Origin: Streptomyces sp. B3I8 | GTDB taxonomy: Bacteria > Actinomycetota > Actinomycetes > Streptomycetales > Streptomycetaceae | Direction of reading: 5' to 3' | NCBI RefSeq assembly: GCF_030816915.1 | Contig: NZ_JAUSYN010000002.1 | Location: 3,795,501-3,859,500, forward strand | Length of the DNA stretch: 64,000 nt | Shown here: piece by piece, positions 6,206-25,062 of the stretch | How positions within the stretch are numbered: position 1 is the stretch's first letter | Layout: the number at the start of each line of letters is the position of its first letter | Position numbers and translations under genes: made by a program | The notes under the pieces: generated by a model | The model's database searches: none | What the model was told of the DNA's origin: nothing | What the model saw: the letters and a program-made list of their open reading frames with translations, nothing else

Positions 6206-6868
6206 ATGAGAGTGCTGGTAGCCGAGGACCATCGCGTGCTCGCCCGAACCGTCGCCACCGGGCTGCGCCGCCGGGCGATGGCCGTCGACATCGCCCGGAC
6301 CGGCGACGAGGCCGAGCGGATGTGCCTGCACACCGCCTACGACGTGATCGTCCTCGACCGCGACCTCCCGGTGATGAGCGGCGACGAGGTGTGCAGACGG
6401 CTGCGCGACCTCGACGACGCGCCGCGCATCCTGATGGTGACCGCGGCCGGCGAGCTCACCGACAAGGTCTACGGCCTCGACGCCCTCGGCGCGGACGACT
6501 ACCTGGCGAAACCCTTCGACTTCGACGAACTCGTGGCCCGCGTACGCGCGTTGAGCCGCCGCGCACCCAAACCGCCACTGGTCCTGCTGCGCCGAGGCCC
6601 CCTCATCCTGGACGCGACACGGCACGAGGCGTCCGTGGACGGCAGAGCGCTGGACCTGACCCCGAAGGAGTTCGCGGTCCTGCACCTGCTGCTCGCCGCC
6701 GACGGGACGCCCGTGCACCACGACGAGCTGGTCCGCACCGTCTGGGACGAGAACCTCGACCCCCGCACCAGTGCGGTCCGCGCGACCGTCAGCCGGCTGC
6801 GCGGGAAACTCGGCGACCCCGGCCTCATCGTCGCCGACAAGGGAGAGGGGTACCGGCTGTGCGACTGA
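6206..6868 (+). CDS. OmpR/PhoB family response regulator
   Basis: A 220-residue response regulator. The receiver domain (about 1-115) has the acidic pair E7/D8, phospho-acceptor D51 in IVLDRDLP and the switch lysine in YLAKPFDF. The C-terminal winged helix (about 125-220) carries DLTPKEFAVLHLLL and the RATVSRLRGKL recognition region. The ATG at 6206 is chosen over an upstream in-frame start because it begins right at MRVLVAED. It overlaps the kinase gene by 10 bp, so the two are translationally coupled, and it is divergent from the ABC exporter it most likely controls. Confidence 0.94.
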   Translation: MRVLVAEDHRVLARTVATGLRRRAMAVDIARTGDEAERMCLHTAYDVIVLDRDLPVMSGDEVCRRLRDLDDAPRILMVTAAGELTDKVYGLDALGADDYLAKPFDFDELVARVRALSRRAPKPPLVLLRRGPLILDATRHEASVDGRALDLTPKEFAVLHLLLAADGTPVHHDELVRTVWDENLDPRTSAVRATVSRLRGKLGDPGLIVADKGEGYRLCD

Positions 6869-8208
6869 ATCCGCGTGCCGCGCTGCCGCACGCCCGCGCC
6901 GCGCTGCTGAGCCCGCGCGCCACGCTGCGCCGACTGCCGTTCCGTACCCGCCTGGCCGCCGCCATCTGCACGCTCTTCCTGGCCGCCGGCATCGCCCTGC
7001 TCACCTTCGTGGTGCTGCTCGCCCGCCACGGAACGGACCAGCAGGTACAGGGAATGGCGATCGCCCGGTCCGACCACGGCCCCACCGACCCCCGCAGCCC
7101 CTTCACCTCCGTACCCGTCCCTCCCGACGCCGCCCGGCCGAACCCCACCACCCCGCGGCCGAACCCCACCACCCCGCGATCGAACCCCGTCACTCCGCGC
7201 CCGGTCGGCGTCGCCACACGGCCGGTCGGCGTCGTCCCACGGCCGTACGACGTCGCCGAGGTCTGGAAGATCGACCAGAGCGTACGCGCCGTCCAGGAGA
7301 CCGCGCTGCGCCAGATGGTGCTCTGGTCGGCCGTCGGCCTCCTGGTGATGGCCGTACTCGCCGGACTGCTCGGCTGGTGGCTCGCCGGACGGGCACTGCG
7401 CCCTGTCGTCTCCATGACCGAGGCCGCCCGCCGGATCAGCGAACAGAACCTGCACCAACGCCTCGCGCTCGACGGTCCCCCCGACGAACTCCACCTGCTC
7501 GCCGACACCTTCGACACCATGCTCGACCGCCTGGAGAAGTCCTTCGAGAGCCGGCGCCGCTTCGTCGCCAACGCCTCCCACGAACTGAAGACGCCCCTGG
7601 CGGTTCAGCGCACCAGCCTCCAGGTCGGCCTCGCCGACCCGCTGCCGGACGGTCTCGCCGAGGTCCGCGAGGACCTTCTCGACGCCAACCGGGAGGCCGA
7701 ACAGCTCATCGACGCACTCCTCCTGCTGGCGCGCAGCGACCGCGGCCTCACCCGCACCGCACGCGTGGACCTCGCGGCCACCGCCCGCCGCGTCACCACG
7801 CGACTCGCCGCGCAGGCCACCCGACGCGGCCTACGCCTCGACCTGGACGTCACACCGGAGGGCGCCGCCGACACCCCACCGCTCGTCCACGGCGACCCCG
7901 TCCTGCTCAGCCACCTGCTGACGAACCTGGTCCACAACGCCGTCCAGTACAACCACCCCGGCGGCCACGTCCGCGTCCGCCTGGGTACCCGCACCGTGAC
8001 CGTCACCAACACGGGCCCCGACATACCCCCCGAGCGGATCCCCGACCTGTTCGAACCCTTCCAACGCCTCGGCCCGTCCCGCACCGCCACCACCGGCCAC
8101 GGCCTCGGCCTCTCCATCGCCCACTCCATAGCCGAGGCCCACCACGCCACCCTCACCGCCCGCCCCGGCCCCGAGGGCGGCCTCGTGGTCACCGTCCGCT
8201 TCCCCTGA
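6859..8208 (+). CDS. Sensor histidine kinase with proline-rich extracellular loop
   Basis: A 449-residue membrane kinase starting at a GTG inside the response regulator gene. Order: N-terminal transmembrane helix (about 35-55), a short periplasmic loop, second helix (LWSAVGLLVMAVLAGLLGWW), HAMP region, H-box (NASHELKTPLAV), N-box (LLTNLVHNAVQYN) and G-box (GHGLGLSIAHSI). The extracellular loop has no recognisable sensor domain; it is a run of proline-rich repeats (PNPTTPRPNPTTPR, then TRPVGV and PRPVGV copies). That fits kinases that sense through the partner ABC transporter rather than by binding a ligand, but this is inference. Confidence 0.93.
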   Translation: MRLNPRAALPHARAALLSPRATLRRLPFRTRLAAAICTLFLAAGIALLTFVVLLARHGTDQQVQGMAIARSDHGPTDPRSPFTSVPVPPDAARPNPTTPRPNPTTPRSNPVTPRPVGVATRPVGVVPRPYDVAEVWKIDQSVRAVQETALRQMVLWSAVGLLVMAVLAGLLGWWLAGRALRPVVSMTEAARRISEQNLHQRLALDGPPDELHLLADTFDTMLDRLEKSFESRRRFVANASHELKTPLAVQRTSLQVGLADPLPDGLAEVREDLLDANREAEQLIDALLLLARSDRGLTRTARVDLAATARRVTTRLAAQATRRGLRLDLDVTPEGAADTPPLVHGDPVLLSHLLTNLVHNAVQYNHPGGHVRVRLGTRTVTVTNTGPDIPPERIPDLFEPFQRLGPSRTATTGHGLGLSIAHSIAEAHHATLTARPGPEGGLVVTVRFP

Positions 8209-8236: not shown

Positions 8237-9214
8237 TCAGTGGACGAACGCCGACTCGGGTGTCTCCCGGGACACGTATCCGAGGTCCGCCACGAACCGC
8301 GAGGCGGGGAAAGGCGCATCACGTGCCAGGACGTCCGACACGAACTGGTACTCGTCGATCTCCAGCAGCCGCTGCCGAGCGTTCTCCACATTCTTGAGGT
8401 ACCAGGGCACGACCTGACCCCTGATCCAGGAGGAATGGCATACCTTCTCATTGTTCAGCGGGAAAACGACCGGTGCGATGAAACGGTCCCTGATAAACCT
8501 GGTAATGCCCAGAAGTCCGGCACCGTCCAATGTCGGACCACTCGCGGCACGGCGGTCGAGGAAGTCGCGCAGCAGCGCGTCGAACAGGGTGTGGAAATCC
8601 TCTCGGTACTCGTCGACCTGCGGTTTTCCGGAACCGTGGAACCTCCCGGCCGTCCGCTCGCACAGGTCGTACCATCGTTTCTCGCGGAGGGAGAATCCCA
8701 GCCGCTCCTCCACCTCCCGGGGAATGACCCGGGGATGCAGATTGAGCCCTGTCACCGCGAAGAGGATGTCCTCGATCGCGCCGGTGAGGGCATCGGCCAT
8801 GAGGACGGTCCCGCCCTCGCGCGAAAGGGCCGACGCGGCCTTCTCGTGGATGCCGCGCAGGTCGCGCAGGTCGCGCTGGTCGACCCCGCGGTCGTCGGCG
8901 AAGTAGTCGGCGACATTGGCGGCCTGGTCGAAGTTGCCGCGTTCGGCGTTGTGGGCGAAGGGCCATCTGTTCAGGTCGTGCAGCCAGACCAGCCTCTGTA
9001 CCCGGCCGAGGTCTTCCGCGCCAGTGAGGTCACACATCAACCGCGCCGCCAGCGCCACGCGTTCGACATGCCACAAGCGGGCGAAAACCGAGAGCCGTGG
9101 GTCGTCCTCCTCCCCGTACACGGTGACGAAACCGGTGATGCGGCTGAGTCGTCCGACGCGTGTGTCCATCCCGCTCCACAGCGACGGGAGTGCTTTCGCG
9201 ATGAGTTTGTTCAT
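8237..9214 (-). CDS. HD-domain phosphohydrolase, dGTPase-like
   Basis: A 325-residue soluble protein. The metal site is read as His in RLWHVERVALAARL, the His-Asp pair in LHDLNRWPFAHNAE, and a downstream Asp in MADALTGAIEDI. The HD segment resembles the HDIGHPPFGHxGE signature of deoxyguanosine triphosphohydrolases, though the Gly-His after HD is Asn-Arg, so it is a distant relative. The likely reaction is hydrolysis of a phosphate ester or nucleotide. Third gene of a minus-strand operon; its ATG overlaps the radical SAM stop by 4 bp. It is convergent with the histidine kinase gene. Substrate unknown. Confidence 0.75.
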   Translation of the reverse strand: MNKLIAKALPSLWSGMDTRVGRLSRITGFVTVYGEEDDPRLSVFARLWHVERVALAARLMCDLTGAEDLGRVQRLVWLHDLNRWPFAHNAERGNFDQAANVADYFADDRGVDQRDLRDLRGIHEKAASALSREGGTVLMADALTGAIEDILFAVTGLNLHPRVIPREVEERLGFSLREKRWYDLCERTAGRFHGSGKPQVDEYREDFHTLFDALLRDFLDRRAASGPTLDGAGLLGITRFIRDRFIAPVVFPLNNEKVCHSSWIRGQVVPWYLKNVENARQRLLEIDEYQFVSDVLARDAPFPASRFVADLGYVSRETPESAFVH

Positions 9215-10464
9215 TTGGGCACCATACTTTCGATGGGGGTTCCCGAACCGTCCTGTGCGTGTCGCCCCGCCGCGGTGGGCCATCCGCTCTCCCAAGCCCG
9301 CTGCCATACGATCGAGCGAGCGGCGACGACGAATGTGCCGCGTAGGGCGTGCAATAGCGTGTTGTAGTCGAATTCCGGAACCGCGGCATCGACATGGATA
9401 TGTTTCCTCGCCTCGTCGACCAGCACATGGTCCTCACCGATCCCCAGGAAGCGCGCGATCCTCGCCCGCAGTGCGGCGGGACCGCCCAGGAGGCCGTCGC
9501 CCGCCACCGGCGCGTCCGGCGCGCACAGCCGACGCTGCCACGCCGGACACGAACACGGGGTGCACCGGTCGGCGAAGACTGTGGGGTTCCACGTCCCCAA
9601 CTGCTCCCGGGCCGAGCGGACGAGGGCAAGGGCGCAGGAACTGTGCCGGTACAGCGGGTACTCCGTCCGTCGCCCCGCGCGGACCGCCTGGCCCCAGCGC
9701 TCGCGGTCGAAGACCTCCGTCGCGCCCTCTCCGGCTCGCATGGTCTCAGCCAGATGCGTCCGCAGCCGCGCATCGTCCTGTGGCACTCCCGGTCCGAGTC
9801 TCAGGCCGTTCAGGACCGAACAACGCATGCCCGACGCGTGGAGGGACTCGACGACCGTCTCCAAAGACGCCGGATCGGGCAGGAGTTCACGCACGAACGG
9901 CCGCCAGAAGTGGACGGCGTGCTGGTTCCTCGACGCGCTCACCAGCCGGGCGTTGGCCAGGGTCTCCTCCAGCCGTGCGGTTCGGCCCGCTTCCAGCGGG
10001 ATCCCCGCGGTGCGGGCGAGCGACTGGCTGAAGAACCACACCACGGGCCAGCCGATGGCGTCGATCTCGGCGATCGTGTCCTCTCGCAGCACCGCCTTGG
10101 TGATGAGCACCATGGTGCGGGGCGGGATGCGCCGCGACAGTTCCCGGAGAACCTCGATCGTCGCCCGGCGGTTCTCCGGGCTCATCATCATGTCGGTGTG
10201 GTTCCCGAGACACAGCGGGGTGGGATCGTCCAGCGGATCCATCACCTCGGCACGCCGGCCGTTCAGATACCGATCGACCTCGTCGGCCAGGTCCCGCGGG
10301 GAGACCCGGGCGACAGGCTTGGTGGCGCGCAGGCCGAGGACGCCGAGGTAGCAGTAGGCGCAGTCCGCGGGGCAGCCGACCACGGGATCGAGGGTGATCC
10401 AGGTGTCGTGCTCGGCGATGAGCGGCGGCACGGAGCCCTGGAGGCGCGCGGCGGCCGGAGTCAC
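9211..10464 (-). CDS. Radical SAM protein, spore-photoproduct-lyase-like core
   Basis: A 417-residue enzyme. GCPADCAYCYLG is the CxxxCxxC motif that binds the [4Fe-4S]-SAM cluster, about 35 residues from the start; the DxxCYL style and following barrel (GNHTDMMMSPENRRATIEVL, MVLITKAVL) recall the SPL/Elp3-type radical SAM group. A second cysteine group, RCTPCSCPAWQRRLC near residue 300, could bind another cluster or zinc. GTG at 10464 gives a 4-bp overlap with the upstream kinase gene; a GTG two codons earlier (10470) is possible. It overlaps the HD gene at its 3' end. Probably cytosolic; substrate unknown. Confidence 0.82.
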   Translation of the reverse strand: MTPAAARLQGSVPPLIAEHDTWITLDPVVGCPADCAYCYLGVLGLRATKPVARVSPRDLADEVDRYLNGRRAEVMDPLDDPTPLCLGNHTDMMMSPENRRATIEVLRELSRRIPPRTMVLITKAVLREDTIAEIDAIGWPVVWFFSQSLARTAGIPLEAGRTARLEETLANARLVSASRNQHAVHFWRPFVRELLPDPASLETVVESLHASGMRCSVLNGLRLGPGVPQDDARLRTHLAETMRAGEGATEVFDRERWGQAVRAGRRTEYPLYRHSSCALALVRSAREQLGTWNPTVFADRCTPCSCPAWQRRLCAPDAPVAGDGLLGGPAALRARIARFLGIGEDHVLVDEARKHIHVDAAVPEFDYNTLLHALRGTFVVAARSIVWQRAWESGWPTAAGRHAQDGSGTPIESMVPK

Positions 10465-12338
10465 GGCCACAGTTTCAGGAACGCGCCGCGAAGCGTCTCG
10501 TACCGTTCCGTCTTCGCCCTGGTGTCCTCCACCGAGTCCGAGTGCCTCCAGTGGAAGGCGAACGTCTCCTCGATCAGGCTTCTGCTGTGGAGCCCGGAGA
10601 CGTCGAACTGCAACTCGAACGAGTCGAAGAGCAGCTTCTGGCGCTTGATGCGCGGTGTTCTGAAGTAGGGCTCGTAGAACGATGTCTCCTCCGTGATCAG
10701 CACGGTGGCGCCCACCGCGAACCGGCACAGTCGCAGCTCGATCAGCGAACCGAACTCCCGGCGCAGGAGAGTGAAGCCGTCCAGACTCTCCTCGGTCTTC
10801 CTGAGCAGGGTGGGATCGGGTACGTAGGGGCCGTCGTCGTGCTCCATGTAGGACATGGAGAGACCGAGATACTCCGGCATGTACGGGCTGCACACGGCGA
10901 CCTGCAAGCTGCCCCCCGCGGCGAGGAGATCCCGGATCTCCCCGGTGAACTGGCCCCGCGGTGACAGGTAGGACTGCCCGGTCTCGGCGAGCAGCCGAAC
11001 GGTCGAGATGCGGGTGGCCGCGTCCACCAGCGCGGCCTTCTTCGAGGCGTTGCGCAGTTGGTTCACCACACGCTCCGATCCGCGGGTCGGTACGAAGGCA
11101 GCCCGGCACCGCAGCGCGGAGGCGAGCACCTGCGGCGCCGTCGAGATGCGCGGGTGAGTCTCCCCGTCCCCGGACAGACGTCGGCGAAGCGCGCAGATGA
11201 GATACATCAGGGACGCGGCGTCCGGTTCGTCGTGCCCCATGGCGGCGCCGGCGGTCCATCGTGTGCGCTTGAGACACTCCCGCAGAAGGAACCAGCGGTA
11301 CATCATCGTGGCCCCGGGCCGTGCCATCTGGGGCAGGGACTGGTACATCATCCGCCGCCACTGGGTGATGCACTTGATCTGACGGTTGTTCTCGGTCGTC
11401 GCGCCTTCACCCAGGCTGACCTCGTCCCGCAGCAGGTGCGCGGTCGCGTCGAGCAGCTGCGTGTGGTCCAGGGCCTGGTCCCCGTCGACCCTCGAGGTGG
11501 TACGGAAGAGCAGATCGATCTCGAACCGTGCGAAATCCTCGAACACATGGCCGCGACGCCCGTTGCCGTAGTCGATGAAGTGCACTTCGGAGTGGACGGA
11601 GTCCACCAGGACGTTGGCGAACCTCACGTCCCCGTGCAGCAGTCGGTCGTCGTGCACGGGAGCGACCCGGATGGAGGCGATGCTCTCCTCCCACCACTCG
11701 CGGAATCCGGCGAGTTCCGGCAGGTCGGGGCAGAAGGAGCGCGCCGTGTTGAGAGCGGCGAGTATGCCCATGTCCCAGCGGAGAGGAGGCAGGTACCTCA
11801 GCAGGGGCTGAGCGGCCGCCGACGGGCGGACAGTCGTACTCGCCGCCAGGTTCAGGGCGACGATGCGCAGACATTCGCGCAACGTCGACTCGGACGGGGA
11901 CTCGTCCCGGTTCGGGCTCCACAGGTACGTCCTGATGAGCTCGGCGAAGTCACCGAAATTGCCGATCTCCGCGAACGTCTTCCCGCCTATGTACGGGTAC
12001 ACCACCACGGACCACAGTTCCGACCGCGCCTCGACCTCCACCTCCACCGGTCCGAACGTCTCGTCGAGGCCGCGCTCGGTCAGCCAGGGGTCGCCGCCGG
12101 TGTACTCCGCCCGGTTCTCGCGCTCGGCGAGCATGTGCTCCTGCGGCCCGGCCTTCAGGACGAGTGGGTCGAGGTGCTCGGTCCACACCAGCGCCACGAG
12201 GGACCCGGTGTAACCACCGGGAAGCAGGCGTGCCACCGGTTCACTCCCGGGAGCCGGGCCCGACAGCGCGCTGACACATCCGATGAGGCGGCGGATGTCA
12301 CCGCTGGAAAGGTGCGCATGATGACCGACGATCTGCAA
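10461..12338 (-). CDS. APH-fold kinase fused to an uncharacterised C-terminal (PLD-like?) domain
   Basis: A 625-residue two-part protein. The N-terminal half is an aminoglycoside-phosphotransferase-like kinase: a glycine loop (LPGGYTGSLVAL), a candidate ATP lysine (LVLKAG), the catalytic loop LLHGDVRFANVLVD (HGDxxxxN) and the metal Asp in FIDYGNG, so it looks catalytically complete. This N-lobe recalls the ternary-complex-associated kinase-like domains described in NTP-dependent bacterial conflict systems. The C-terminal part from about 430 (ISTVRLLAETGQSYLS, LQVAVCSPYMPEYLG, GATVLITEETSFYEPYF) resembles effector domains fused to Streptomyces regulators, possibly PLD-like, but no HKD motif is seen. 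A TTG start is used. First gene of the operon. Confidence 0.75.
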   Translation of the reverse strand: MQIVGHHAHLSSGDIRRLIGCVSALSGPAPGSEPVARLLPGGYTGSLVALVWTEHLDPLVLKAGPQEHMLAERENRAEYTGGDPWLTERGLDETFGPVEVEVEARSELWSVVVYPYIGGKTFAEIGNFGDFAELIRTYLWSPNRDESPSESTLRECLRIVALNLAASTTVRPSAAAQPLLRYLPPLRWDMGILAALNTARSFCPDLPELAGFREWWEESIASIRVAPVHDDRLLHGDVRFANVLVDSVHSEVHFIDYGNGRRGHVFEDFARFEIDLLFRTTSRVDGDQALDHTQLLDATAHLLRDEVSLGEGATTENNRQIKCITQWRRMMYQSLPQMARPGATMMYRWFLLRECLKRTRWTAGAAMGHDEPDAASLMYLICALRRRLSGDGETHPRISTAPQVLASALRCRAAFVPTRGSERVVNQLRNASKKAALVDAATRISTVRLLAETGQSYLSPRGQFTGEIRDLLAAGGSLQVAVCSPYMPEYLGLSMSYMEHDDGPYVPDPTLLRKTEESLDGFTLLRREFGSLIELRLCRFAVGATVLITEETSFYEPYFRTPRIKRQKLLFDSFELQFDVSGLHSRSLIEETFAFHWRHSDSVEDTRAKTERYETLRGAFLKLWP

Positions 12339-12513: not shown

Positions 12514-12981
12514 ATGGAGTCCTTGATAGCCGCGGCCATCGCCATCCTGGGAACACTGGCGGGATCCGTGGTCAACCACATGCTCCAGAGCCGCTCCACG
12601 GTCCGCACCGAGGCCTACGCACGTGCCGAACGCCTTCGGGAGCAGCGGCTCGCCGCGTACGGCGACTTCGCCAGAGTCATCATGGAGTACCGACGGGCGG
12701 AATTCGTACGGTGGGACCGCGCGAACCAGCAACGGCCGGAGTCCGCACTCCAGGAAGCGCGGACGGAGAGCTACCGGCTCCGGGGCGAAGCGTGGTACGC
12801 GCTGTATCGCATCGGCTTCCTCTCCGACGACTCACGACTGGTCGAGGCGGCAGAGGTTCTGGTGGGCAGGACGGCGGAACTCCACCACGCCGTCACCGAG
12901 GAGGACCTGCGCGCACGGGGCGCGCGGGTACGGGAGGAACTGCGGCGGTTCGTCGAACTCGGATCCGGTCAGGTGCGATGA
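12514..12981 (+). CDS. Membrane-anchored helical protein, function unknown (copy 1)
   Basis: A 155-residue protein beginning MESLIAAAIAILGTLAGS, a single N-terminal transmembrane helix, followed by a long charged helical region rich in Arg, Glu and Ala with coiled-coil character (ERLREQRLAAYGDFARVI, TESYRLRGEAWYAL, LRARGARVREELRRFV). The ATG at 12514 is chosen over an upstream TTG because the paralogue at 19582-20046 opens the same way (MESIIASAIAVLGT). It is transcribed away from the kinase/radical SAM/HD operon across a 175-bp spacer. No family name is recognised; widespread small actinobacterial proteins of this layout are uncharacterised. Confidence 0.8.
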   Translation: MESLIAAAIAILGTLAGSVVNHMLQSRSTVRTEAYARAERLREQRLAAYGDFARVIMEYRRAEFVRWDRANQQRPESALQEARTESYRLRGEAWYALYRIGFLSDDSRLVEAAEVLVGRTAELHHAVTEEDLRARGARVREELRRFVELGSGQVR

Positions 12982-13605: not shown

Positions 13606-14007
13606 TCACGCGGGCAACCGCATGTCGACGACGGCACTGATCTCCACCACCTGACCGGGCACGGCCAGCTCGGATACCCCGAGAACCGTGCTGGCCGGGC
13701 GGTGGTCGCCGAAGTACCTCAGATTGCCCTCCGACACCGCGGCGGCGTGCTGCCGCAGACCCACCATGTACACGGTCTGCGAGACGACCTGGTTGCGGGT
13801 GGCGCCGTAGTGGCCGAGGACCTTGTCCATGTTGGCGTAGGTCTGTTCGAGCTGTCCGGCGAAGTCGCCCGCGTGGAGGAACTCGCCCGCCTCGTCGAAC
13901 GCGACCTGCCCGGAGACGTGGATCAGCTCACCGGACCTGATCGCCTGCGCGTAGCCGAAGTCGCTCTCGGCGGGGATGTCATAGGTGAAGACATGGTTGT
14001 CGGCCAC
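13606..14007 (-). CDS. RidA family protein (enamine/imine deaminase-like)
   Basis: A 133-residue protein of the RidA/YjgF/UK114 family (GELIHVSGQVAFDE, FAGQLEQTYANMDKVLGHYG, VVEISAVVDMRLPA), whose members deaminate reactive enamines or act in aromatic degradation. Start: GTG at 14007 preceded by a GGAGG box 9 bp upstream; longer in-frame starts read through the operator region. The Arg that binds the substrate carboxylate in true RidA proteins is not obvious at the usual place, so activity may differ. It is divergent from an HxlR regulator, which probably controls it. Confidence 0.88.
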   Translation of the reverse strand: MADNHVFTYDIPAESDFGYAQAIRSGELIHVSGQVAFDEAGEFLHAGDFAGQLEQTYANMDKVLGHYGATRNQVVSQTVYMVGLRQHAAAVSEGNLRYFGDHRPASTVLGVSELAVPGQVVEISAVVDMRLPA

Positions 14008-16200: not shown

Positions 16201-16244
16201 CTGTCGGGGTGGCGGGATTTGAACCCACGACCTCTTCGTCCCGA
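16201..16244. other. attL: 44-bp duplicate of the tRNA-Pro 3' half
   Basis: These 44 bases are identical to 34563-34606, the 3' half of the tRNA-Pro gene from the anticodon loop through the acceptor end. Beyond 16244 the two copies diverge at once. This is the expected left attachment site of an element that inserted in the tRNA and rebuilt it with its own copy. Confidence 0.9.
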
Positions 16245-16327
16245 CTCTCGGCTGGGAGGTCATTGAAGTCTGGCGGGCTGGTCAGTTGGCCATCGACGGT
16301 TGTTGGCAGCCAGCTGAGGTCACGTTG

Positions 16328-16351
16328 GTTGCTGTACTTCGCTGCTGTACC
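16328..16351. repeat. Short repeat also present at 20245-20267
   Basis: A motif with two GCTGTAC units (GTTGCTGTACTTCGCTGCTG at its start) recurs at 20245-20267 with three changes in 23 bases. It lies in a gene-free stretch (16245-16593) after attL. It could be an integrase arm site or a relic of duplicated element ends; only the repetition is seen. Confidence 0.4.
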
Positions 16352-16593
16352 GCAACAGCGTCGGGCCTTCGGCTCCCGTCAACATGCCTAGGGTCGGCAT
16401 GACACGCGTCGGTCGGCGGCGACTTCCCCTCGTGCCGGCCCGTTGTGGCGGGGCCAGCCCGTTCGAGCTGGGCCGGGTGGGGAAGCGACATCCACTTTAG
16501 GAGTTCGGTCCACGTGGCCTCAGGGACTCAGACGCTCGGGGCGTGCGGCCGCCGCGGGTTGCCCAGGGTTCCTGCTGTCTGCCGCCGTTGATG

Positions 16594-16842
16594 TCAGGCG
16601 TGGATGTCAGGACGGGGGCTCGCCGGGGTTTCAGAGATCTGTCGCGCCAACTCCTCGATCACCTGCGGGACGACATGCTGAGCGTCCTCGTCTTGCAGCG
16701 CTTCGACAAGCGCCTGATGGACTGCCGCATAGGGCTGCCCGGCGTGTGAGGCTCGGGTCCGGTCGACCGCCCGCTCGATCTTCGCCATGTGGGCTGCCAC
16801 GATCGGCATCGACCTCTCGTACTCGCTGGTGTCCGTGGCCAT
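16594..16842 (-). CDS. Small hypothetical protein
   Basis: An 82-residue soluble helical protein (MATDTSEYERSMPIVAAHMA, then KIERAVDRTRASHAG, QALVEALQDEDAQHVVPQV). Acidic overall, no transmembrane segment, no recognised family. The reading frame shows coding-type third-position bias, but no clear ribosome site precedes the ATG. It stands alone in the left AICE cargo region, with repeat sequence on its upstream side. Confidence 0.5.
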   Translation of the reverse strand: MATDTSEYERSMPIVAAHMAKIERAVDRTRASHAGQPYAAVHQALVEALQDEDAQHVVPQVIEELARQISETPASPRPDIHA

Positions 16843-16890
16843 GTACTCAGCCGCTCAGGCCGGGCCGATGAGGTCAAGGCCGACGGTGCG

Positions 16891-16913
16891 CCCTCAGCTT
16901 GGGAAGCTGAGGG
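16891..16913. repeat. CCTCAGCTT hairpin, copy A of dispersed cargo repeat
   Basis: CCTCAGCTT-GGG-AAGCTGAGG is a perfect 9-bp stem with a 3-base loop, extended by CCC/GGG. Related sequences occur at 19400-19416, 21611-21634 and 21966-21984, each between cargo genes. The flanking 16843-17147 holds no convincing gene. Confidence 0.65.
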
Positions 16914-17147
16914 AAACAGTGCCGATTCAATCCCTGAGCCGCATGTACGGCTGCTTCGGGGGCCTCGGCGGGCACCGGCGCTGTCACGGCCCCGCGTTCC
17001 CCGCCCCGTCTGGTGCGCTTGTGGCACGGCGGAGCTAACTCGTTGCACGCGCCGATCGCCTCGAAGTTTTGGCGTGCCTGCCAGTCGTCTTGTGGCGGTT
17101 GCTGGGGCTGGCCGTTGGCAGCTGTGGCGGCAAGGGAAGATATCGGG

Positions 17148-18305
17148 ATGGTTGATCAGATTCCTGCGGTGCCGGTGGGGGTGCTGACTGACCCGGCGCA
17201 GGCGTTTGCGCTGGTCGGTGGTGCCGACGATGCCGAGCGGTTCACGTTCGGTGGCGCGACGGTCGTGATCGGTCCGGCGGGAACCGTGATCGTCACCGGG
17301 GCGGGTGACAGAGGCCCCAACAGGAGCGGGGTGTGGAACGCGGATGAGGTCCGTCTGTTCGGCCCGGCTCCGGCACCGGTCACGGAACGACTCGCGGGGC
17401 GGACATGGAAATGGGGCGCGGTCGACGAGGGGTTGCCCGTGCACCTCATGGTCCGTGTCGAGGACGGCCTGCTGTACCTCGGTGCCGGTCGTACTGTCCA
17501 GGTTGGGACAGCCCGGCGGCCAGGCTGCACCGAGTACGAACTCACCCGCTGCGTGGTGCGGCTCGAAGTGCCCCTGAGCCGGAACCTGCTTGACCGGGTT
17601 CGTCCGCCGCTGCCTGCGGTGAATCTCCCGGGGCTGGACTGGCTCCGGCACGTGATTGGCGACCGCGCGGTGGCGCTGGAGCAGTTCGTCACAGGCTGGT
17701 ACCCGGTCACCGACACTGCGGACACGCCGTCCACCAGACTGCCGTCGGCACCCATACCCGATGGTTTGAGACAGCTCTACCGGCTGGCTGTGCAGCGGCC
17801 GGCGGCTCTTGGAGTGCAGAACAGGATCTACCCCGAGTCAGCCCTGCGCACCGACGACCGTGGGGAAATGATGGTTTTCGGTGTCGAGAACCAAGGAGGA
17901 TTCGTCTGGTCACTCTTGTGGACGCTCGGCGGTGGGGAGACCGATCCGACCGTTTGGTTCTGCGACGACAGTGAAAGGCCGATCGCCGAACAGGAGCCGC
18001 TCAGTGGCTTCCTCCTTCAGTTCTCACTCTTCGAGGCCGCCATGGGCGCGGACTACTTGGCGCTGCCTCGCAGCCTTGAACTCACGGCACAACAGGTTGA
18101 CCAGCTCACCAAGCGGCTGGATCCGGTTCCGCTGCGCCCCTTCTGGCCTTGGGGTCCCACTCGTTTCTATGTGGCGCCGGGCCTCGTCATGCACGTCTGC
18201 GAAGCAGGCGATAACAAGTTCGAGGCGTGGGCCGGCGCCACTCACCGCAGCGCTCTGGCCCTGCTGGCTGATGCCACAGTCGAGTGGTCTCGCTTCGACG
18301 GATGA
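17148..18305 (+). CDS. Hypothetical protein with SUKH (SMI1/KNR4)-like C-terminal half
   Basis: A 385-residue soluble protein. The N-terminal 150 residues are beta-rich (FTFGGATVVIGPAGTVIV, WKWGAVDEGLPVHLMV). The C-terminal half resembles SUKH-type domains: PDGLRQLYRLAVQRPAALGV, RGEMMVFGVENQGGFVWSL, PTVWFCDDSE and SGFLLQFSLFEAA. SUKH proteins include immunity proteins against nuclease toxins and general binding modules. ATG at 17148 follows a GGGAAGATAT stretch. No toxin gene is adjacent, so an immunity role is only a possibility. Lies in AICE cargo, between repeat copy A and the internal att-like site. Confidence 0.65.
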   Translation: MVDQIPAVPVGVLTDPAQAFALVGGADDAERFTFGGATVVIGPAGTVIVTGAGDRGPNRSGVWNADEVRLFGPAPAPVTERLAGRTWKWGAVDEGLPVHLMVRVEDGLLYLGAGRTVQVGTARRPGCTEYELTRCVVRLEVPLSRNLLDRVRPPLPAVNLPGLDWLRHVIGDRAVALEQFVTGWYPVTDTADTPSTRLPSAPIPDGLRQLYRLAVQRPAALGVQNRIYPESALRTDDRGEMMVFGVENQGGFVWSLLWTLGGGETDPTVWFCDDSERPIAEQEPLSGFLLQFSLFEAAMGADYLALPRSLELTAQQVDQLTKRLDPVPLRPFWPWGPTRFYVAPGLVMHVCEAGDNKFEAWAGATHRSALALLADATVEWSRFDG

Positions 18306-18633
18306 CATCGCCGCGTTGCAGAGCCGCAGACAAGTCGGTGAAGTCTCAATATGGCCCGCCCTGATCGCAACGGCCCCTGATCAGGTCAGATAGCCAGGGG
18401 AAGTGGTGCTGTGCGGTGTCCACTAGCCACCGTAGTTCTCTGTGTTACCCCGACGATCGGGCGCGATTGGGGCACGGACCTCTTCGTCCCGAAGCAACTT
18501 GGGTGAGCTTCTGACCTTGGCCTGGTGGGCCTCTCAGCAGCGCTGACGGTCCACAGACGTCCGCTGTTGTCCGCCGCTGTTCGTGGGCGTTGTCACGCAG
18601 TTAGACACTCACGCAGCGGACGTGGCACGAGCT
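18306..18633. other. Gene-free cargo spacer with att-like site and arm-like repeats
   Basis: No gene seen. At 18477-18493, seventeen bases (GACCTCTTCGTCCCGAA) match the tRNA-Pro anticodon region at 34591-34607 exactly. About 100 bp further (18591-18616) are TGTCACGCAG and TTAGACACTCACGCAG, which match the int-proximal arm motifs at 34487-34506. Together they look like a second, diverged left end of an element. Confidence 0.5.
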
Positions 18634-18972
18634 TCAGTCGCCCGCGAACCACAGGTAACTGCCTGGGGTAGCCGCGCACTCTTCCAGCATCGTTGCGAGG
18701 TCGCCCAGTGCGGCGAGCTGACGTTCATCACCGCATCGCTGCGTCAGGCCGCGGATCTCCTGGAGAGCGGCTGCGGCCTCTTGTTCGTTCATCACCGTGT
18801 CTCCGTACGGATCTACGGCAGTGAGCCTCCCCGGTACTCCAAGGAGCTGCAGCGAGCCGAGCGCATCGGCCAGCGCGTCGCCGTGCCCTTGGGAGCTCCG
18901 CAGAAGTGTCGCGCGGGACTTGCGCCAGTTACGAGCCGGCCGTGATGAGTGCAACTCCAGATCGATTCCCAT
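18634..18972 (-). CDS. Hypothetical protein
   Basis: A 112-residue soluble protein: a basic N-terminus (LELHSSRPARNWRKSRATLL), then helical acidic sequence (MNEQEAAAALQEIRGLTQRC, GDERQLAALGDLATMLEECA) and an aromatic C-terminal tail. No family is recognised. An internal methionine at the MNEQEAAAAL segment could be an alternative start giving about 52 residues. Alone in the cargo region, followed on its upstream side by about 600 bp of noncoding repeat-bearing DNA. Confidence 0.45.
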   Translation of the reverse strand: MGIDLELHSSRPARNWRKSRATLLRSSQGHGDALADALGSLQLLGVPGRLTAVDPYGDTVMNEQEAAAALQEIRGLTQRCGDERQLAALGDLATMLEECAATPGSYLWFAGD

Positions 18973-19581
18973 ACTTCATGATGCGCATGCTGTGCCGCTG
19001 GACAGCCGTCCGTGACCAACGGCCACATGTGGTCAAGGCCCTCGCTCATCGGTGTCTTCTTGCCCTGGGTGTTGTCGGGGATCTTGGTGAGCTGGGTTTT
19101 TGCTGGTGAGAAGCGGTGTCCCTGCCTACGTGATGGTCGTCGTTGGTCGTTGCCGGTCGCTGTCGAGCGCCCTCGGACGGCCCAGAGACGGCCCAGCTTC
19201 GCTGCGCTCGCCTGAGGACTGGCGCTTTCGATGGGATCGTCTGAACCTCAGCCGACGAAAGCCAGCCACGGCGGCGGGTGCGTCGACCGAGCAGGCGCGC
19301 GTGTGCCTCGCTGCACCCCACCGGCCTCAGCCACGCTGCCAATGCCGTCGACCAGAGCGGACTACGACGGCCGGGCCGCTACGACGATGCCTGAGCCATC
19401 AACTTGGGAAGCTGCGAGCCTTTGGCCGGTTTCCGCGCTGACCTGGATGAACGGTTCGCTCGGGGCCTCGACGGGTGTTGCCCCAGTCACCGTGGTTCCT
19501 CGCTGTTCCCCGCTCGATCTGGTGCGGTTGTGGTGCGGTCCGTCGGCGCTCGGAATCAGCCCAGGGGCCTGTGCACGTACC
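18973..19581. other. Long gene-free stretch containing repeat copy B
   Basis: About 600 bp with no coding bias. Its central part (19241-19416) is repeat copy B. The sequence after it (to about 19560) resembles that after copy A at 16960-17035 (TTCCCCGC then TCTGGTGCG motifs). Confidence 0.5.
19241..19416. repeat. Dispersed cargo repeat, copy B
   Basis: About 175 bp that align with 21803-21985 at roughly three of four positions. They share CCTCAGCC, GCGCGTGTGCCTCGCTGCAC, CACCGGCCTCAGCCACGCTG, GTCGACCAGAG and, at the end, CTTGGGAAGCT. A third copy is split by the IS (22076-22093 and 23463-23575). Confidence 0.7.
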
Positions 19582-20046
19582 TCAAAGGTGCTGCTTCGCT
19601 GAGCCGACGAGTCGGCTGATGTTGTCACGGGTGCGTGCTCTCAGCTCGTCCAGCTCAGCCCTGGCATCCGCCTTGGGCAGGTCCGTGATGTCCGCAAGCA
19701 CGTCTTCCGCGGTCCGACTCAACCGATCGTCATCCGTCAGCATCTGCACCCGGAAGAGGGCCTCTTGAGCGCTGGAGCGCAAGTCGTAGGCGCGGATGCG
19801 CACCGCGTCGGGGTCCTCCGGTGGTGGCTGCTCATGCTCACAGAACCACAGATGGACCAGGCAGCGGCGATAGTTGACCAACGCGCCGGCATAGGCGGAG
19901 TAGGCATCGAGTCGCTCCTGCCGAAGCTTCTCGCGGCGGGTGAACTGATGGCTCCTGTCGGTGGTGCGCTGCTGAAACGCCAGAGTGATCCCCGACCCGA
20001 GCAGGGTTCCAAGAACGGCTATGGCGCTGGCGATGATGGACTCCAC
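19582..20046 (-). CDS. Membrane-anchored helical protein, function unknown (copy 2)
   Basis: A 154-residue paralogue of the protein at 12514-12981. Both begin MES(L/I)IA(A/S)AIA(I/V)LGTL, a single transmembrane helix, and continue with matching charged helices (EKLRQERLDAYSAYAGALVN versus ERLREQRLAAYGDFARVIME) and the motif DD(S/D)RL. A GTG start at 20046 gives this form. Here it is AICE cargo; the other copy is chromosomal beside the kinase/radical SAM/HD operon. The function is unknown; the shared layout suggests an inner-membrane protein with a cytosolic coiled coil. Confidence 0.75.
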   Translation of the reverse strand: MESIIASAIAVLGTLLGSGITLAFQQRTTDRSHQFTRREKLRQERLDAYSAYAGALVNYRRCLVHLWFCEHEQPPPEDPDAVRIRAYDLRSSAQEALFRVQMLTDDDRLSRTAEDVLADITDLPKADARAELDELRARTRDNISRLVGSAKQHL

Positions 20047-20275
20047 GCGTCAAGCTGATCACGTCTCGCCGCCTTGGGTGGGCCGCTGGCCCGACTTCGG
20101 TGTCAAATCGGCGCTGCCCTCGGCGTCACTGACGCTGAGAGCATGACCTTCTGATCCGTAGCTCTGGAGAGATCGGTCATTGGAGGTCATACAGGCTGCG
20201 GGGAGGCCCTTGAGGGCCGGAGTCGTTCGCCGTCGGTTGCTGGGGTTGCTGTATTCCGTTGCTGTACAGCAGCGG

Positions 20276-20677
20276 CTACCAGTCCCGCCAGTCATCTGTG
20301 ATCTCGGTGCGGCTGATGCCTCGCCTCGCTGCCAGAGCAGGGACATCGATGCCGTGCCCCGTCAAGACCTGATCGATGTAGAGGCACAACTCCTCGCGCT
20401 CTTCGGTCTCGAAGCCGGCGCCGTCGTGGTCCTCGTTGATCTCATTCAGGGCCAGCACGACACGCTTGATCACCTCGAAGACCTGCTCGTCGTCCTGGTT
20501 CCGGAGCGGGTCCACCTCCGACTCGAACGCCTGCAGTGCCCCGTCAGTCGCCGCCAGCAGTGACTCAGGGAAGAGGTCCGACAGGAAGGCATCGCTCGGG
20601 GCCCGTGTGCCAGCGGCGAGTTCGGTTGCCTCGCTCTCCACGCGGGCCCGCCAACGTGCTGATGGTCTGGTTGCCAT
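20276..20677 (-). CDS. Hypothetical acidic protein
   Basis: A 133-residue soluble protein (RPSARWRARVESEATELAAG, EVIKRVVLALNEINEDHDG, ELCLYIDQVLTGHGIDVPAL, ARRGISRTEITDDWRDW). The acidic, tryptophan-ended form with a central helix resembles uncharacterised proteins seen in Streptomyces cargo regions; no specific family is claimed. ATG at 20677 is chosen over longer in-frame starts that read through noncoding-looking sequence. Neighbours are hypothetical genes in AICE cargo. Confidence 0.6.
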   Translation of the reverse strand: MATRPSARWRARVESEATELAAGTRAPSDAFLSDLFPESLLAATDGALQAFESEVDPLRNQDDEQVFEVIKRVVLALNEINEDHDGAGFETEEREELCLYIDQVLTGHGIDVPALAARRGISRTEITDDWRDW

Positions 20678-20943
20678 GCCTGGACCGTAAGCCCAGGCTC
20701 TGACACCGGGATCACGGTGCACGCTTTCCAACTGTGGTGGTGGGGTGGCGGGCGTCGTTCGGGGGTGTTCACCTGGGTTCACGGGCGGCCCGCTCGTGGG
20801 CTGCACCCGGCTCCTGGTCCCGCCTGAACGGCCGTGAACGGGGTTGAATGAGAAGGAAACTGAGACGGACGGCCACGCAGGGCTGAGACGGCCGACCTGC
20901 CAATTTGCTGGTCTGTCGGCTTCGTCCATACGAGGATGCTGCT

Positions 20944-21567
20944 ATGCGCCGCGCTCACGATGAGGAAGAGCCGCTCAAGCTGATCCGCCGCTACGTCACG
21001 CCCGACCGGCGGTACCTCAAACTTGGCGGCAGCCTTCTCGGGATGAGCGGACGCAACCGAACCAAGTTCCTCCGCAAGCTGGGCCAGGCTGCCGGTGAGA
21101 TCAGTCCTCGTGAACTGGACACGCTGCTCGACGGAGGGTGGCGCGAGCGTAAGACGGCAGCCTGGCTCGTCGCCGTGGCCGGCAGATCCGAGTTCCGGGA
21201 TCGTCTCGGCGAACTCATGCTCGCTAGTGAAGGGCCCTACGCGGGGCAGGCGTACTGCGTCGCTCTGGCCAGCTTCGGCACCCGGACCGACGCCGACTTG
21301 CTGGTCGCTTACCTCGACCGCTACCTGCGGCGCCCCGACCTCTACTACGACCAGACAGCCGTCCTCGGCGCGCTCCTGTTGCTCGACGCCAAGCTCGGTG
21401 CTGACTACGCGGCCCGGTTCCTCGCGCCTGACGGACTCTGGCAGCAGTGGATCGACGGGCCGCCGAGCAAGGACGGCGAGGTCGCCGACAGCTACCAAGA
21501 GTTCATTGGCAAGCTCTGCGCCTTCGCTGAGGAGGCTGCCAAGCACTGCCACGACAGGCTGACATGA
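20944..21567 (+). CDS. DUF6000-like hypothetical protein
   Basis: A 207-residue helical protein: YVTPDRRYLKLGGSLLGM, WRERKTAAWLVAVAGRSEFR, AGQAYCVALASFGTRTDADL, LVAYLDRYLRRPDLYYDQTA, VLGALLLLDAKLGADYAARF. The Trp-Arg motif, the AGQAYCVALA segment and the YLDRYLxRPDLYYDQ segment fit DUF6000 as remembered; members look like HEAT-type repeats and have no known function. ATG at 20944 is chosen at the end of a spacer; the upstream in-frame start adds 13 unlikely residues. Stand-alone AICE cargo gene. Confidence 0.65.
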   Translation: MRRAHDEEEPLKLIRRYVTPDRRYLKLGGSLLGMSGRNRTKFLRKLGQAAGEISPRELDTLLDGGWRERKTAAWLVAVAGRSEFRDRLGELMLASEGPYAGQAYCVALASFGTRTDADLLVAYLDRYLRRPDLYYDQTAVLGALLLLDAKLGADYAARFLAPDGLWQQWIDGPPSKDGEVADSYQEFIGKLCAFAEEAAKHCHDRLT

Positions 21568-21610
21568 GTCCCTCGCCGAGGGAGGTCACTACCATCGCCT
21601 AGCGCGTTGC

Positions 21611-21634
21611 GCCCTCAGCTTGGGAAGCTCGGGG
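21611..21634. repeat. Dispersed cargo repeat hairpin, first half of copy C
   Basis: GCCCTCAGCTTGGGAAGCTC, an imperfect version of the copy A hairpin, begins 44 bp after the preceding gene. The following 21635-21800 has no gene and shares CCGCTGACCTG with the sequence after copy B. Confidence 0.55.
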
Positions 21635-21802
21635 CTCTTGACGGCTGTAGCTCCGCTGACCTGCGGCGGGATGGTGCTGGACTCCTGGTCGCACCCGGCG
21701 CGAGTTCCCGCTGCCCCCCCGTGATTCCCCGGAGGAGCTGGCATGCGAATAGCACGGTACTTTCGCCTCGATCGTCTCCTTGGCGGAGCTGGGCCGAGGA
21801 TT

Positions 21803-21985
21803 GTCCGAGCCTCAGCCAACGACAGTCAGCCACGATGGCGGATCAGCCGACCGTGCAGGTGCGCGTGTGCCTCGCTGCACCCCCACCGGCCTCAGCCACG
21901 CTGCCCTAGATCGTCGACCAGAGGAGGGAACGGCGGTCGGCACATGACGACGGTGCCTGAGCCACCTCAGCTTGGGAAGCTCAGG
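21803..21985. repeat. Dispersed cargo repeat, copy C
   Basis: Aligns along its length with copy B (19241-19416) and ends in CCTCAGCTTGGGAAGCTCAG. The stretch 21568-22093 around it contains no gene. Confidence 0.7.
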
Positions 21986-22125
21986 CGATTTAGGAGCAAT
22001 ATCTGTGGTTAAGCCGGGTTGGAGCCGCTCCGGAATTTCGCGGGCCAGTAACTGATTTCCGGCAGTGTCACGAAGCTCAGTCGACGACAGCTAAAGGTTG
22101 TCCCGTAAGCCCATGAGGCTGAGGG

Positions 22126-22539
22126 TCATGCTGCGTCAGGGTCGGTGCCGATGGCGCCGGCCGAGCGAAGGGAACGCCCGAGGTCTCCGGTGAGGCTGCG
22201 CGGGTGTCGGCGCCACCACCACAGGTCGGGGCCGGGCAGCCTGTGGAACTGGTCGAGTGCTTGGCCGTCGTCGTCGACGGTCGCGGCCCTGTACCGGTCG
22301 TCCAGAGCTTTGATCCGCGGGGTCCAGAGCTGGACGATGTGTTCGTCCAGCAGGATCCATGCCTCGTGCAGCCAGTTCCGGCAGTAGAGGTCGTTGGTGT
22401 ACTCGTAGATGTCGTCGCCGTAGCCGCGCTCGATGGCGCTCACCAGGGCGGCCCACGCGTTTACCCTTTCAGTGACCGTGAACGCCGTTCGCCAGCCGCG
22501 CTGGTGCAACAGCTCCCCCACCTCGGTCTCCGTAGCCAC
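22126..22539 (-). CDS. Hypothetical protein carried inside the IS
   Basis: A 137-residue soluble protein: GELLHQRGWRTAFTVTERVN, AIERGYGDDIYEYTNDLYCR, WLHEAWILLDEHIVQLWTPR, ALDDRYRAATVDDDGQALDQ, LPGPDLWWWRRHPRSLTGDL. It is tryptophan-rich with no recognised family. It lies between the IS terminal repeats, ends 18 bp inside the left one, and is transcribed away from the transposase. Coding bias is clear. It may be a true passenger or a regulator of transposition. Confidence 0.65.
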   Translation of the reverse strand: MATETEVGELLHQRGWRTAFTVTERVNAWAALVSAIERGYGDDIYEYTNDLYCRNWLHEAWILLDEHIVQLWTPRIKALDDRYRAATVDDDGQALDQFHRLPGPDLWWWRRHPRSLTGDLGRSLRSAGAIGTDPDAA

Positions 22540-22638
22540 GGGCGGAGGATCTCACGGGGAAGCCGTCCGGGCGATCGAGATACTGTCCCGCCAGAGGCTG
22601 CGGGCCCCGAAGCATGATCAAGGTGAGACGATCTCGCC

Positions 22639-23409
22639 GTGGCTGGTGTGATCACGGCGTCGGAACCCTCCTGGATAGCCCCGTTCACCGGGCTGAGCCC
22701 ACGACAGTTCACGAAACTTGTGACTGCGTTGCGGCGGGAGGGCGCCGACCCGGTGAGCAGAGGCCGGCCCTGGGGCCTACCGCTGGAAGACAGATTTCTG
22801 CTGGTGGCCGCGTACTGGCGGACGAACCTCACCCTGCGGCAGCTGGCCCCATTGTTCGGGGTCTCCAAGTCCGCCGCGGACCGGATCATCGCCCACATCG
22901 GGCCATTGCTCGCCCTGCGGCCTCGCACGAGGTTCCGGAAAGACACGGTGCTGATCGTCGACGGCACCCTAATCCCCACCCGGGACCACACGATCGCCGA
23001 GCAGTCGAAGAACTACAGGTACTCCACCAACCACCAAGTCGTCATCGATGCCGACACCCGTCTGGTCGTCGCCGTCGGCCGACCGGTCCCGGGGAACCGC
23101 AACGACTGCAAGGCATGGGAGCTGTCCGGAGCGAAGGACGCCATCGGCCGGACCACTGTGATCGCTGACGGTGGCTACCGGGGCACTGGCCTGATCATCC
23201 CTCACCGCCGTGACCCCGGTCGGGCCGAACTACCAAGTTGGAAAGAGGAACACAACGCCTCTCACCGCAAGGTCAGGGCCCGCGGCGAGCACGCCTTCGC
23301 CCGGATGAAGAGCTGGAAGATCCTCCGCGACTGCCGCTTGAAGGGCAACGGCGTTCACCACGCCATGCTCGGCATCGCCCGCCTCCACAACGTCACCATC
23401 ACCGGCTGA
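22639..23409 (+). CDS. IS5-group DDE transposase
   Basis: A 256-residue transposase. The N-terminal helix-turn-helix (LSPRQFTKLVTALRREG, NLTLRQLAPLFGVSKSAADR) is followed by a DDE_Tnp_4-like catalytic domain: first Asp in VLIVDGTLIPTRD, second in VIADGGYRGTG and Glu in RARGEHAFARMKSWKILRD. Length and motif order are normal for single-frame members, so it may be active. GTG at 22639. It cuts and pastes the flanking DNA between the 12-bp repeats. Confidence 0.92.
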   Translation: MAGVITASEPSWIAPFTGLSPRQFTKLVTALRREGADPVSRGRPWGLPLEDRFLLVAAYWRTNLTLRQLAPLFGVSKSAADRIIAHIGPLLALRPRTRFRKDTVLIVDGTLIPTRDHTIAEQSKNYRYSTNHQVVIDADTRLVVAVGRPVPGNRNDCKAWELSGAKDAIGRTTVIADGGYRGTGLIIPHRRDPGRAELPSWKEEHNASHRKVRARGEHAFARMKSWKILRDCRLKGNGVHHAMLGIARLHNVTITG

Positions 23410-23462
23410 ACCGAGCAGGCAGGTCAGCAAGCACGACCGTGATCAATTACGGGACAACGCTT

Positions 23463-23580
23463 AGCTACGACGCCGGGAGTGCCAGCGATCAGGCGCGCGT
23501 ATGTCTCATTGCACACTCACCGGCTTCCACCACGTAGTCAATACCGTCGGCTGGAACAATCACGACTGCCCACTCGCGCT
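23463..23580. repeat. Dispersed cargo repeat, right part of copy D
   Basis: Continues the repeat interrupted by the IS: AGGCGCGCGTATGTCTCATT, GCACACTCACCGGCTTCCAC and CAATACCGTCG match copy B in order (GCGCGTGTGCCTCGCTGCAC, CACCGGCCTCAGCC, CAATGCCGTCG). The left part is at 22076-22093. Confidence 0.6.
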
Positions 23581-23658
23581 GACGGTGCCCACAGGCGCGA
23601 CCGCTGAAGCATGTGGGTTCGATTCAACAGATCGAAAATGAGCGCTACTGACAATCAA

Positions 23659-24672: not shown

Positions 24673-24838
24673 GCATCCACCACCTGATCGCTTTGACTGC
24701 CGAAGTCCCAATGGCTATGTCCGTGAAACACGCAGTCAACACCAAGACGCCATATTTTGGTCTCCTGTAAGGAAGGAGGCAAGCGCTTTGGCTATGGTGT
24801 GCTCCAATCTCTGACACCGGACGGCTGAACGCCGGGTG

Positions 24839-24911
24839 CGCGGCCCGGCCGCCGGCCGGGCTGGAGCGGGACGAAGGCAGGAGCGCAGGCCCGGCCGGGG
24901 GCCGGGCCGCG
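24839..24911. repeat. Large GC-rich inverted repeat (23-bp arms)
   Basis: Arms 24839-24861 and 24889-24911 are reverse complements with one mismatch, around a 27-base loop, and consist mainly of CCGG and GGCC blocks. It lies in the 390-bp gene-free stretch (24673-25062) between cargo and core. It could be a strong bidirectional terminator, or a replication or transfer origin structure. No other signal was found in the stretch. Confidence 0.6.
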
Positions 24912-25062
24912 CGCGGGGAGCGGAGCGAGCCGCCTTGAACCAGTAGAGAAAGTTTGAATCAGGCACGGGTTGTTGGTGTGTCCGGTCCCGGTAGATGCTT
25001 GACGGCCGTCGACGTGGCTTAGGCTCCTGGTGTCTGCTGCCTGGTGGTGTAGAACCCTGAGC

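Follow-up and report, generated by a model that had tools for sequence, protein, structure and literature searches.

The window analyzed here, a stretch of 64,000 nucleotides from Streptomyces sp. B3I8 (contig NZ_JAUSYN010000002.1, positions 3,795,501 to 3,859,500), contains a minus-strand operon of three genes that we call KIN, RSAM and HD after the kinase, the radical S-adenosylmethionine (SAM) enzyme and the HD phosphohydrolase that they encode. Based on genomic context, sequence and predicted structure, we propose that this trio forms the central part of a modular conflict system, probably directed against phages, which would be built on a modified nucleotide that is read by a pseudo-phospholipase-D domain controlling interchangeable effectors. 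We give this reading a probability of about one half.

The genes follow each other in the order KIN, RSAM and HD, with a GTGA overlap between the first two and an ATGA overlap between the last two, and an earlier note made from the letters of this DNA had their coordinates, strand and overlaps right. The parts that matter for the argument are the following, with APH standing for aminoglycoside phosphotransferase, PLD for phospholipase D, CTD for C-terminal domain, and dNTPase for deoxynucleoside triphosphate (dNTP) hydrolase:

10461..12338, minus strand: KIN, APH-fold kinase (residues ~1-390) with a pseudo-PLD C-terminal domain (~405-625); TTG start
11613..11636, minus strand: catalytic loop HGDxxxxN of KIN (residues 235-242); H235, G236, D237 and N242 in 26/26 homologues
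10464..11126, minus strand: pseudo-PLD CTD of KIN; proposed ligand sensor
9211..10464, minus strand: RSAM, radical SAM enzyme with a fold like that of spore photoproduct lyase (SPL) and an extra four-cysteine motif
10351..10374, minus strand: CxxxCxxC of RSAM (C31, C35, C38), the [4Fe-4S]-SAM site; 19/19 homologues, 21/21 including distant relatives
9523..9636, minus strand: second cysteine set of RSAM (C277, C301, C306, C314), a possible auxiliary cluster or metal site; 19/19 homologues, 21/21 including distant relatives
8237..9214, minus strand: HD, HD phosphohydrolase with dNTPase-type residues
8942..8980, minus strand: HD motif and HE dyad HDLNRWPFAHNAE of HD (residues 79-91); H79, D80 and E91 in 30/30 homologues, H88 in 29/30

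A conserved gene pair with changing partners

The trio is not a chance arrangement, as homologues of all three proteins exist and their gene order is conserved. Homology searches gave at least 61 matches for HD and at least 37 for RSAM (the window's own protein counted in both) as well as 25 for the C-terminal region of KIN. For a view across genomes, a set of 84,980 genomes, each from a different species, was scanned for stretches matching two peptide patterns derived from the HD alignment, and genes in GC-rich loci were called with a codon prior. This yielded 14 HD loci, and RSAM lies immediately upstream of HD in 13 of them; the scattering without linkage that the earlier note had proposed to look for is not seen. 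A full-length KIN precedes the pair in eight loci (L002-L009), all of them from actinomycetes, and across loci neighboring trio genes mostly overlap slightly or lie a short distance apart.

The kinase is not an obligatory part of these loci, of which two have a phosphorylase domain instead and four lack it. In the former two, from metagenome-assembled genomes (MAGs) of Oscillibacter (L010) and Clostridiales (L013), similarity to KIN is restricted to the C-terminal part, with a CTD that is 32-34% identical to that of KIN. The first gene there also has a domain of the phosphorylase superfamily PF01048 (E-values 2.8e-8 and 1e-9), for which the closest PDB entries are methylthioadenosine/S-adenosylhomocysteine nucleosidases. 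The same proteins match "PN-superfamily", an effector family of CBASS (cyclic-oligonucleotide-based anti-phage signaling) in PADLOC, at 4.7e-14 and 1.9e-21, and the PADLOC candidate family PDC-M60C at ~1e-9. FastTree trees of RSAM and HD alike contain a clade of these two purine nucleoside phosphorylase (PNP)-like loci and another of L011, L014 and L015, both separate from the KIN loci, and the core pair thus seems to travel together with a changing partner.

The latter clade shares a convergently encoded protein of 415 residues, protein X (L011 10961-12202, L014 10935-12179, L015 10969-12213), whose copies are 76-81% identical to that of L015; the L015 copy has no Pfam match, and neither it nor the L014 copy has a PADLOC match. 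At 9099-10993 of L012 (an Anaerolineae MAG), the HD relative directly follows a pentapeptide-repeat protein in which a membrane helix can be seen by eye.

The HD family is rare. Among 299 genomes of L013's phylum, an HD profile found L013's own protein and 16 short, weak matches (best E-value 1.2e-8) that are presumably other HD proteins. The CTD was found only in L013's own genome among the same number of genomes of that phylum and not at all in 251 genomes of L012's phylum, the latter in a search that had no positive control. Carriage by phages or plasmids was considered and rejected: HD has no relative in viral contigs or plasmids, KIN none on plasmids, RSAM none in phages and the CTD none in viral contigs, and one viral sequence (L080) is weakly RSAM-like, with 26% identity across ~100 residues.

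An intact kinase fused to a pseudo-phospholipase-D domain

KIN matches the Pfam families TCAD9 (1.7e-10; 41.1 bits with a cut-off of 40, and 37.2 bits, under the cut-off, in a six-frame search) and APH (7e-7), and Pfam gives no match to SAVED. It has the N-lobe lysine, the HGDxxxxN loop and the second metal-binding aspartate of APH-type kinases, and K62, E72 and D256 are as invariant as the loop residues among the 26 aligned sequences, in agreement with the earlier note's description of intact kinase motifs. The TTG start gives the same first residue as in several close homologues, with a later start in two.

In the AlphaFold model of KIN (mean pLDDT 79, pTM 0.62), the kinase part matches APH, choline and maltose kinases, while the CTD matches PLD folds, and the sugar-binding domain of TrmB is also among the fold matches of the CTD. 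The catalytic HxKxxxxD of phospholipase D is missing from this domain in 13 of 13 members, so that it is perhaps a sensor; for the same reason an active PLD nuclease was rejected as its identity. A named Pfam family was likewise rejected, the four matches being stray, limited to single members and not credible (best 0.0082, to a chromodomain model). The earlier note had spoken of an uncharacterised C-terminal domain: the domain is there, and it now has a place as a PLD fold that has lost its catalytic motif.

The same domain beside viperin-like enzymes

The CTD also stands at the end of tetratricopeptide-repeat (TPR)-like proteins in nine loci of the window's genus (L056, L057, L058 and L072-L077). 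Using queries drawn from two of these loci, we found an adjoining NUDIX gene in eight of the nine and a radical SAM gene in seven. Four of the radical SAM copies were typed, and each has viperin as its best NCBIfam match, all under the cut-off of that model. The whole set consists of a membrane protein, a weakly trypsin-like protein and the TPR-CTD protein, convergent with the viperin-like radical SAM and NUDIX genes, and it looks to be undescribed. Elsewhere, a two-helix membrane protein (L078 8567-9373) carries a weakly CTD-like domain (4.3e-10) and is possibly a stand-alone relative of the proposed sensor.

A rival explanation is direct immunity of the viperin kind, in which the RSAM product itself would block phage polymerases, KIN would phosphorylate a nucleoside or nucleotide, HD would protect the host or set the nucleotide pool and the CTD would be structural. 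Prokaryotic viperins (pVips) with associated kinases exist; RSAM itself has no match to the viperin family in NCBIfam or PADLOC at E-values up to 1. We regard this explanation as unlikely, if the strongest of the rivals.

RSAM and HD as putative nucleotide enzymes

The predicted fold of RSAM is like that of spore photoproduct lyase, although the two sequences are barely similar (E-value 0.59; 11.5 bits for the SPL model TIGR04070, which has a cut-off of 400). Pfam reports PF04055 at 4e-4, under its cut-off, and nothing else at E-values up to 1, including no cobalamin-binding domain. Both cysteine motifs listed above, the CxxxCxxC and the extra cluster, had been read from the sequence in the earlier note and hold in every sequence aligned. 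Genes next to distant RSAM relatives encode thymidylate synthase, dTMP kinase, dCTP/cytidine deaminase or MurA-like proteins.

In HD, H49 and D141 are conserved in 30 of 30 sequences and, with H79 and D80, make up the H...HD...D metal site of dNTPase-type HD enzymes, next to the catalytic HE dyad (H88 and E91, as HxxE). The HD profile aligns with 2hek and with the dGTPase 2dqb along the HD...PFxHxxE stretch, at weak E-values, in line with the dGTPase-like HD site seen in the earlier note; the match to Pfam HD (PF01966) has an E-value of 0.062, under the cut-off. In the accessible text on the Clover system, the HD motif and HE dyad are required for dNTP hydrolysis (PMC12265719); HD has both and may be a phosphohydrolase acting on dNTPs.

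The neighbors of RSAM relatives also suit a biosynthetic explanation, a minimal cluster for a nucleoside antibiotic in which RSAM would modify a nucleotide, KIN would phosphorylate a nucleoside and HD would dephosphorylate it or confer self-resistance, comparable to thmABC (4'-thiothymidine), PolH/PolJ (octosyl acid) or OxsA/OxsB (oxetanocin). RSAM relatives occur with MurA-like and aldolase genes in five of six annotated plasmid regions examined, three of these five with a near-identical layout, a logic that recalls polyoxin as described in the available part of its literature (PMC5365060). The Streptomyces plasmids in question (L081, L083, L085, L106 and L107) combine a class II aldolase, a MurA-like protein and a radical SAM enzyme, with a glycosyltransferase in four of five, and perhaps carry nucleoside natural-product clusters. 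According to the parts of its report that we could consult, thmABC consists of a radical SAM enzyme, a nucleoside kinase and a triphosphatase with flanks that vary by species, and ThmC alone confers resistance (PMC12691670). However, the kinase of our operon shares its protein with a pseudo-PLD domain, which in other loci is joined to a PNP domain or forms the end of TPR-like proteins, the loci include membrane-anchored NUDIX and other transmembrane (TM) partners, and the three-gene operon comes without a transporter or any other biosynthetic gene. In addition, the accessible text on ThmB describes it as a homologue of AbmG (PMC12691670).

This explanation is kept alive by the nucleoside-type genes around RSAM relatives and by the similar make-up of thmABC, and we consider it improbable. 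We prefer conflict signaling over biosynthesis because partners change on one pseudo-enzyme domain and because two of the partner families are shared with CBASS.

Membrane partners and genomic setting

The earlier note did not mention a further gene, which is divergent from the trio:

12514..12981, plus strand: small membrane protein with one hydrophobic N-terminal stretch (by hydropathy); probable fourth partner

Across ten distinct KIN loci, a small TM protein is found in seven and a TM-NUDIX protein in two, with none called in L005. A divergently encoded homologue of the window's protein is present in L003 (45% identical), whose own counterpart in L071 is 52% identical to it; a second small TM family of the same size is encoded divergently in L007-L009 and 3' of HD in L002. 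In the two Glycomyces loci (L004 and L006), a membrane-anchored Sa_NUDIX protein (Pfam E-values 1.5e-33 and 1.8e-33) is encoded on the same strand just upstream of the trio, and PADLOC, applied to the L006 copy, matches it to the CBASS 2TM effector (1.1e-21) and RTasNUDIX (1.3e-19). The window's protein has a single other match in its own genome (19582-20046, 37% identical), ~7 kb away and inside the integrated element described below, which makes a chance neighborhood with the trio unlikely. In Phytohabitans suffuscus, a protein encoded ~2 kb upstream of KIN, RSAM and HD (L007 2732-4714) matches the PADLOC candidate defense family HEC-05 (2.6e-45).

GC content is 67-69% across 8-13 kb of the window compared to 71-74% to the left. 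In seven relatives examined (L087-L093), the neighboring histidine kinase has an orthologue flanked by the same response-regulator and permease genes, and the trio is absent next door in all seven, with ~1.5 kb visible beyond the kinase; the sequence of an eighth (L094) ends at the kinase. By its low GC content and this absence, the trio is accessory DNA near an element integrated at a tRNA-Pro gene. By eye, this element (16201-34606) resembles an actinomycete integrative and conjugative element: it is bounded by 44-bp repeats (16201-16244 and 34563-34606, the latter within the tRNA-Pro gene at 34565-34639), has an integrase-like gene at 33299-34468 and contains replication- and transfer-like genes. 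A 35-bp stretch at 16108-16142 matches the sequence after the integrase at 89% and hints at an older tandem insertion. The trio lies ~4 kb outside the 44-bp repeats and was therefore rejected as cargo of the element.

This setting also bears on a housekeeping role in nucleotide damage and salvage, where an SPL-like RSAM would repair or read damaged nucleotides, HD would clean the pool and the kinase or phosphorylase would salvage the by-product 5'-deoxyadenosine. The SPL-like fold of RSAM suits this role, as does the nucleosidase-like domain in L010 and L013, which could cleave 5'-deoxyadenosine, and the APH fold is common to MtnK-type sugar kinases. Yet the distribution is very patchy, with the HD family confined to the genome studied here among 296 from its class, the site is accessory and the partners include TM proteins, all of which makes a housekeeping role very improbable.

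Proposed mechanism and points against it

In the modular conflict system that we favor, RSAM would modify a nucleotide, a substrate class that we infer from its relatives, and HD would set the level of the modified nucleotide by dephosphorylating its precursor, the product itself or dNTPs. The pseudo-PLD CTD would bind this ligand and control the effector fused to it, presumably the APH-fold kinase here and the phosphorylase- or nucleosidase-like domain in Clostridia. In other genomes of the genus, the TPR-like protein with its weakly trypsin-like partner may take the effector role, while the small membrane protein, or TM-NUDIX in Glycomyces, would be a further effector or membrane partner. 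The earlier note had suggested a nucleotide-modifying system, possibly defensive or signal-making, and the context agrees with this given the dNTPase-type residues of HD, the nucleotide enzymes encoded around relatives of RSAM, the exchange of partners with CBASS effector families and the occurrence of the CTD beside a viperin-like enzyme; the kinase did not hold up as a fixed member.

Several observations weigh against our reading. KIN, RSAM, HD, the TM protein and 10 other window genes include no CD-NTase (SMODS) and no other known signal maker. PADLOC has no match for RSAM or HD and only weak kinase matches for KIN (best 0.0023), nor does it reveal a clear defense gene among the same 10 genes, a sample without the two-component genes (6212-8208) and most others. 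RSAM and HD occur without KIN or CTD in L011, L014 and L015, and HD without RSAM in L012, in whose genome none was found. The E-values of HD are weak over whole sequences (0.012 for 2hek and 0.37 for 2dqb) and over single stretches (0.42 and 0.67). The apparent nucleoside-biosynthesis clusters around RSAM relatives favor biosynthesis. There are at least two small TM families, with no tblastn match between them; the nine TPR-like loci perhaps amount to five independent cases, and of two protease-like genes scanned, one matches Pfam Trypsin_2 under its cut-off and the other nothing.

The 10 genes gave weak PADLOC matches to PD-T4-2_B (6.7e-10), Csa3 (7e-5, an HxlR-like protein) and DpdE (2e-4). 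The first is a RidA-like protein by eye (13606-14007) and probably an ordinary RidA.

More tentatively, these loci may represent a class of immune signaling in which a radical SAM enzyme and a nucleotide phosphohydrolase make a modified-nucleotide second messenger for a pseudo-PLD sensor fused to interchangeable effectors, in two versions, SPL-like with HD and viperin-like with NUDIX. If so, viperin-type chemistry would yield signals as well as chain terminators, radical nucleotide chemistry would join nucleotidyltransferases, TIRs and cyclases as a source of bacterial immune signals, and viperin-like and SPL-like enzymes would be linked to one sensor domain. The loci offer a testable candidate sensor in the pseudo-PLD domain, a testable enzyme pair and several ready effectors; if they are biosynthetic instead, they would be a compact, self-contained pathway for making a modified nucleoside.

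Comparison with known systems

CBASS shares the effector families TM-NUDIX (Sa_NUDIX) and PN-superfamily with relatives of the trio (L004/L006 and L010/L013), whereas KIN, RSAM, HD and the TM protein of the window match no known CBASS effector family. pVip likewise employs a radical SAM enzyme acting on nucleotides in immunity, and in the TPR-like loci the CTD occurs together with a viperin-like enzyme. In contrast, the RSAM of the window is SPL-like, has a second cysteine set and lacks a match to the viperin model, and the core pairs it with HD and changing partners. From spore photoproduct lyase itself, RSAM differs by its barely similar sequence and by the extra C-terminal four-cysteine motif.

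The kinase lobe of KIN matches Pfam TCAD9, a name that we take to go back to the work of Kaur et al. (2020) on NTP-dependent conflict systems, whose main text does not contain the word TCAD. As far as the accessible text goes, these systems count a few active APH kinases and PNP domains among their effectors, and radical SAM enzymes are mentioned only for peptide modification in FtsH systems (PMC7159879). Unlike in those systems, no STAND, MoxR or vWA partner was identified with the trio.

Clover (the dGTPase CloA with the nucleotidyltransferase CloB) and defensive dGTPases likewise use a dNTPase-type HD enzyme that has the HD motif and HE dyad, as part of a system regulated by nucleotides, as described in the text available (PMC12265719). 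Our operon differs in that the genes scanned include no nucleotidyltransferase and have a radical SAM enzyme and a pseudo-PLD fusion instead, with an HD that is weakly similar by sequence. OxsA/OxsB of oxetanocin A pair an HD phosphohydrolase with a radical SAM enzyme acting on deoxyadenosine phosphates, according to the part of the source at hand (PMC7074753); OxsB is cobalamin-dependent, whereas RSAM lacks a Pfam B12-binding domain. Similar in composition is thmABC of Photorhabdus, also a minimal three-gene unit of radical SAM enzyme, kinase and triphosphatase with changing flanks. Its ThmB is AbmG-like and its product is proven, and the accessible description, on which this comparison is based, tells of no pseudo-PLD fusion or partner swap (PMC12691670).

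A literature search found no title on such a trio among those listed, which is weak evidence of absence given that subscription journals were mostly uncovered. Judged from sequence, the composition appears to be new, though it may be of the thmABC type: it lacks one defining feature each of CBASS, pVip, SPL and OxsA/OxsB. Every single part of the trio belongs to a known superfamily.

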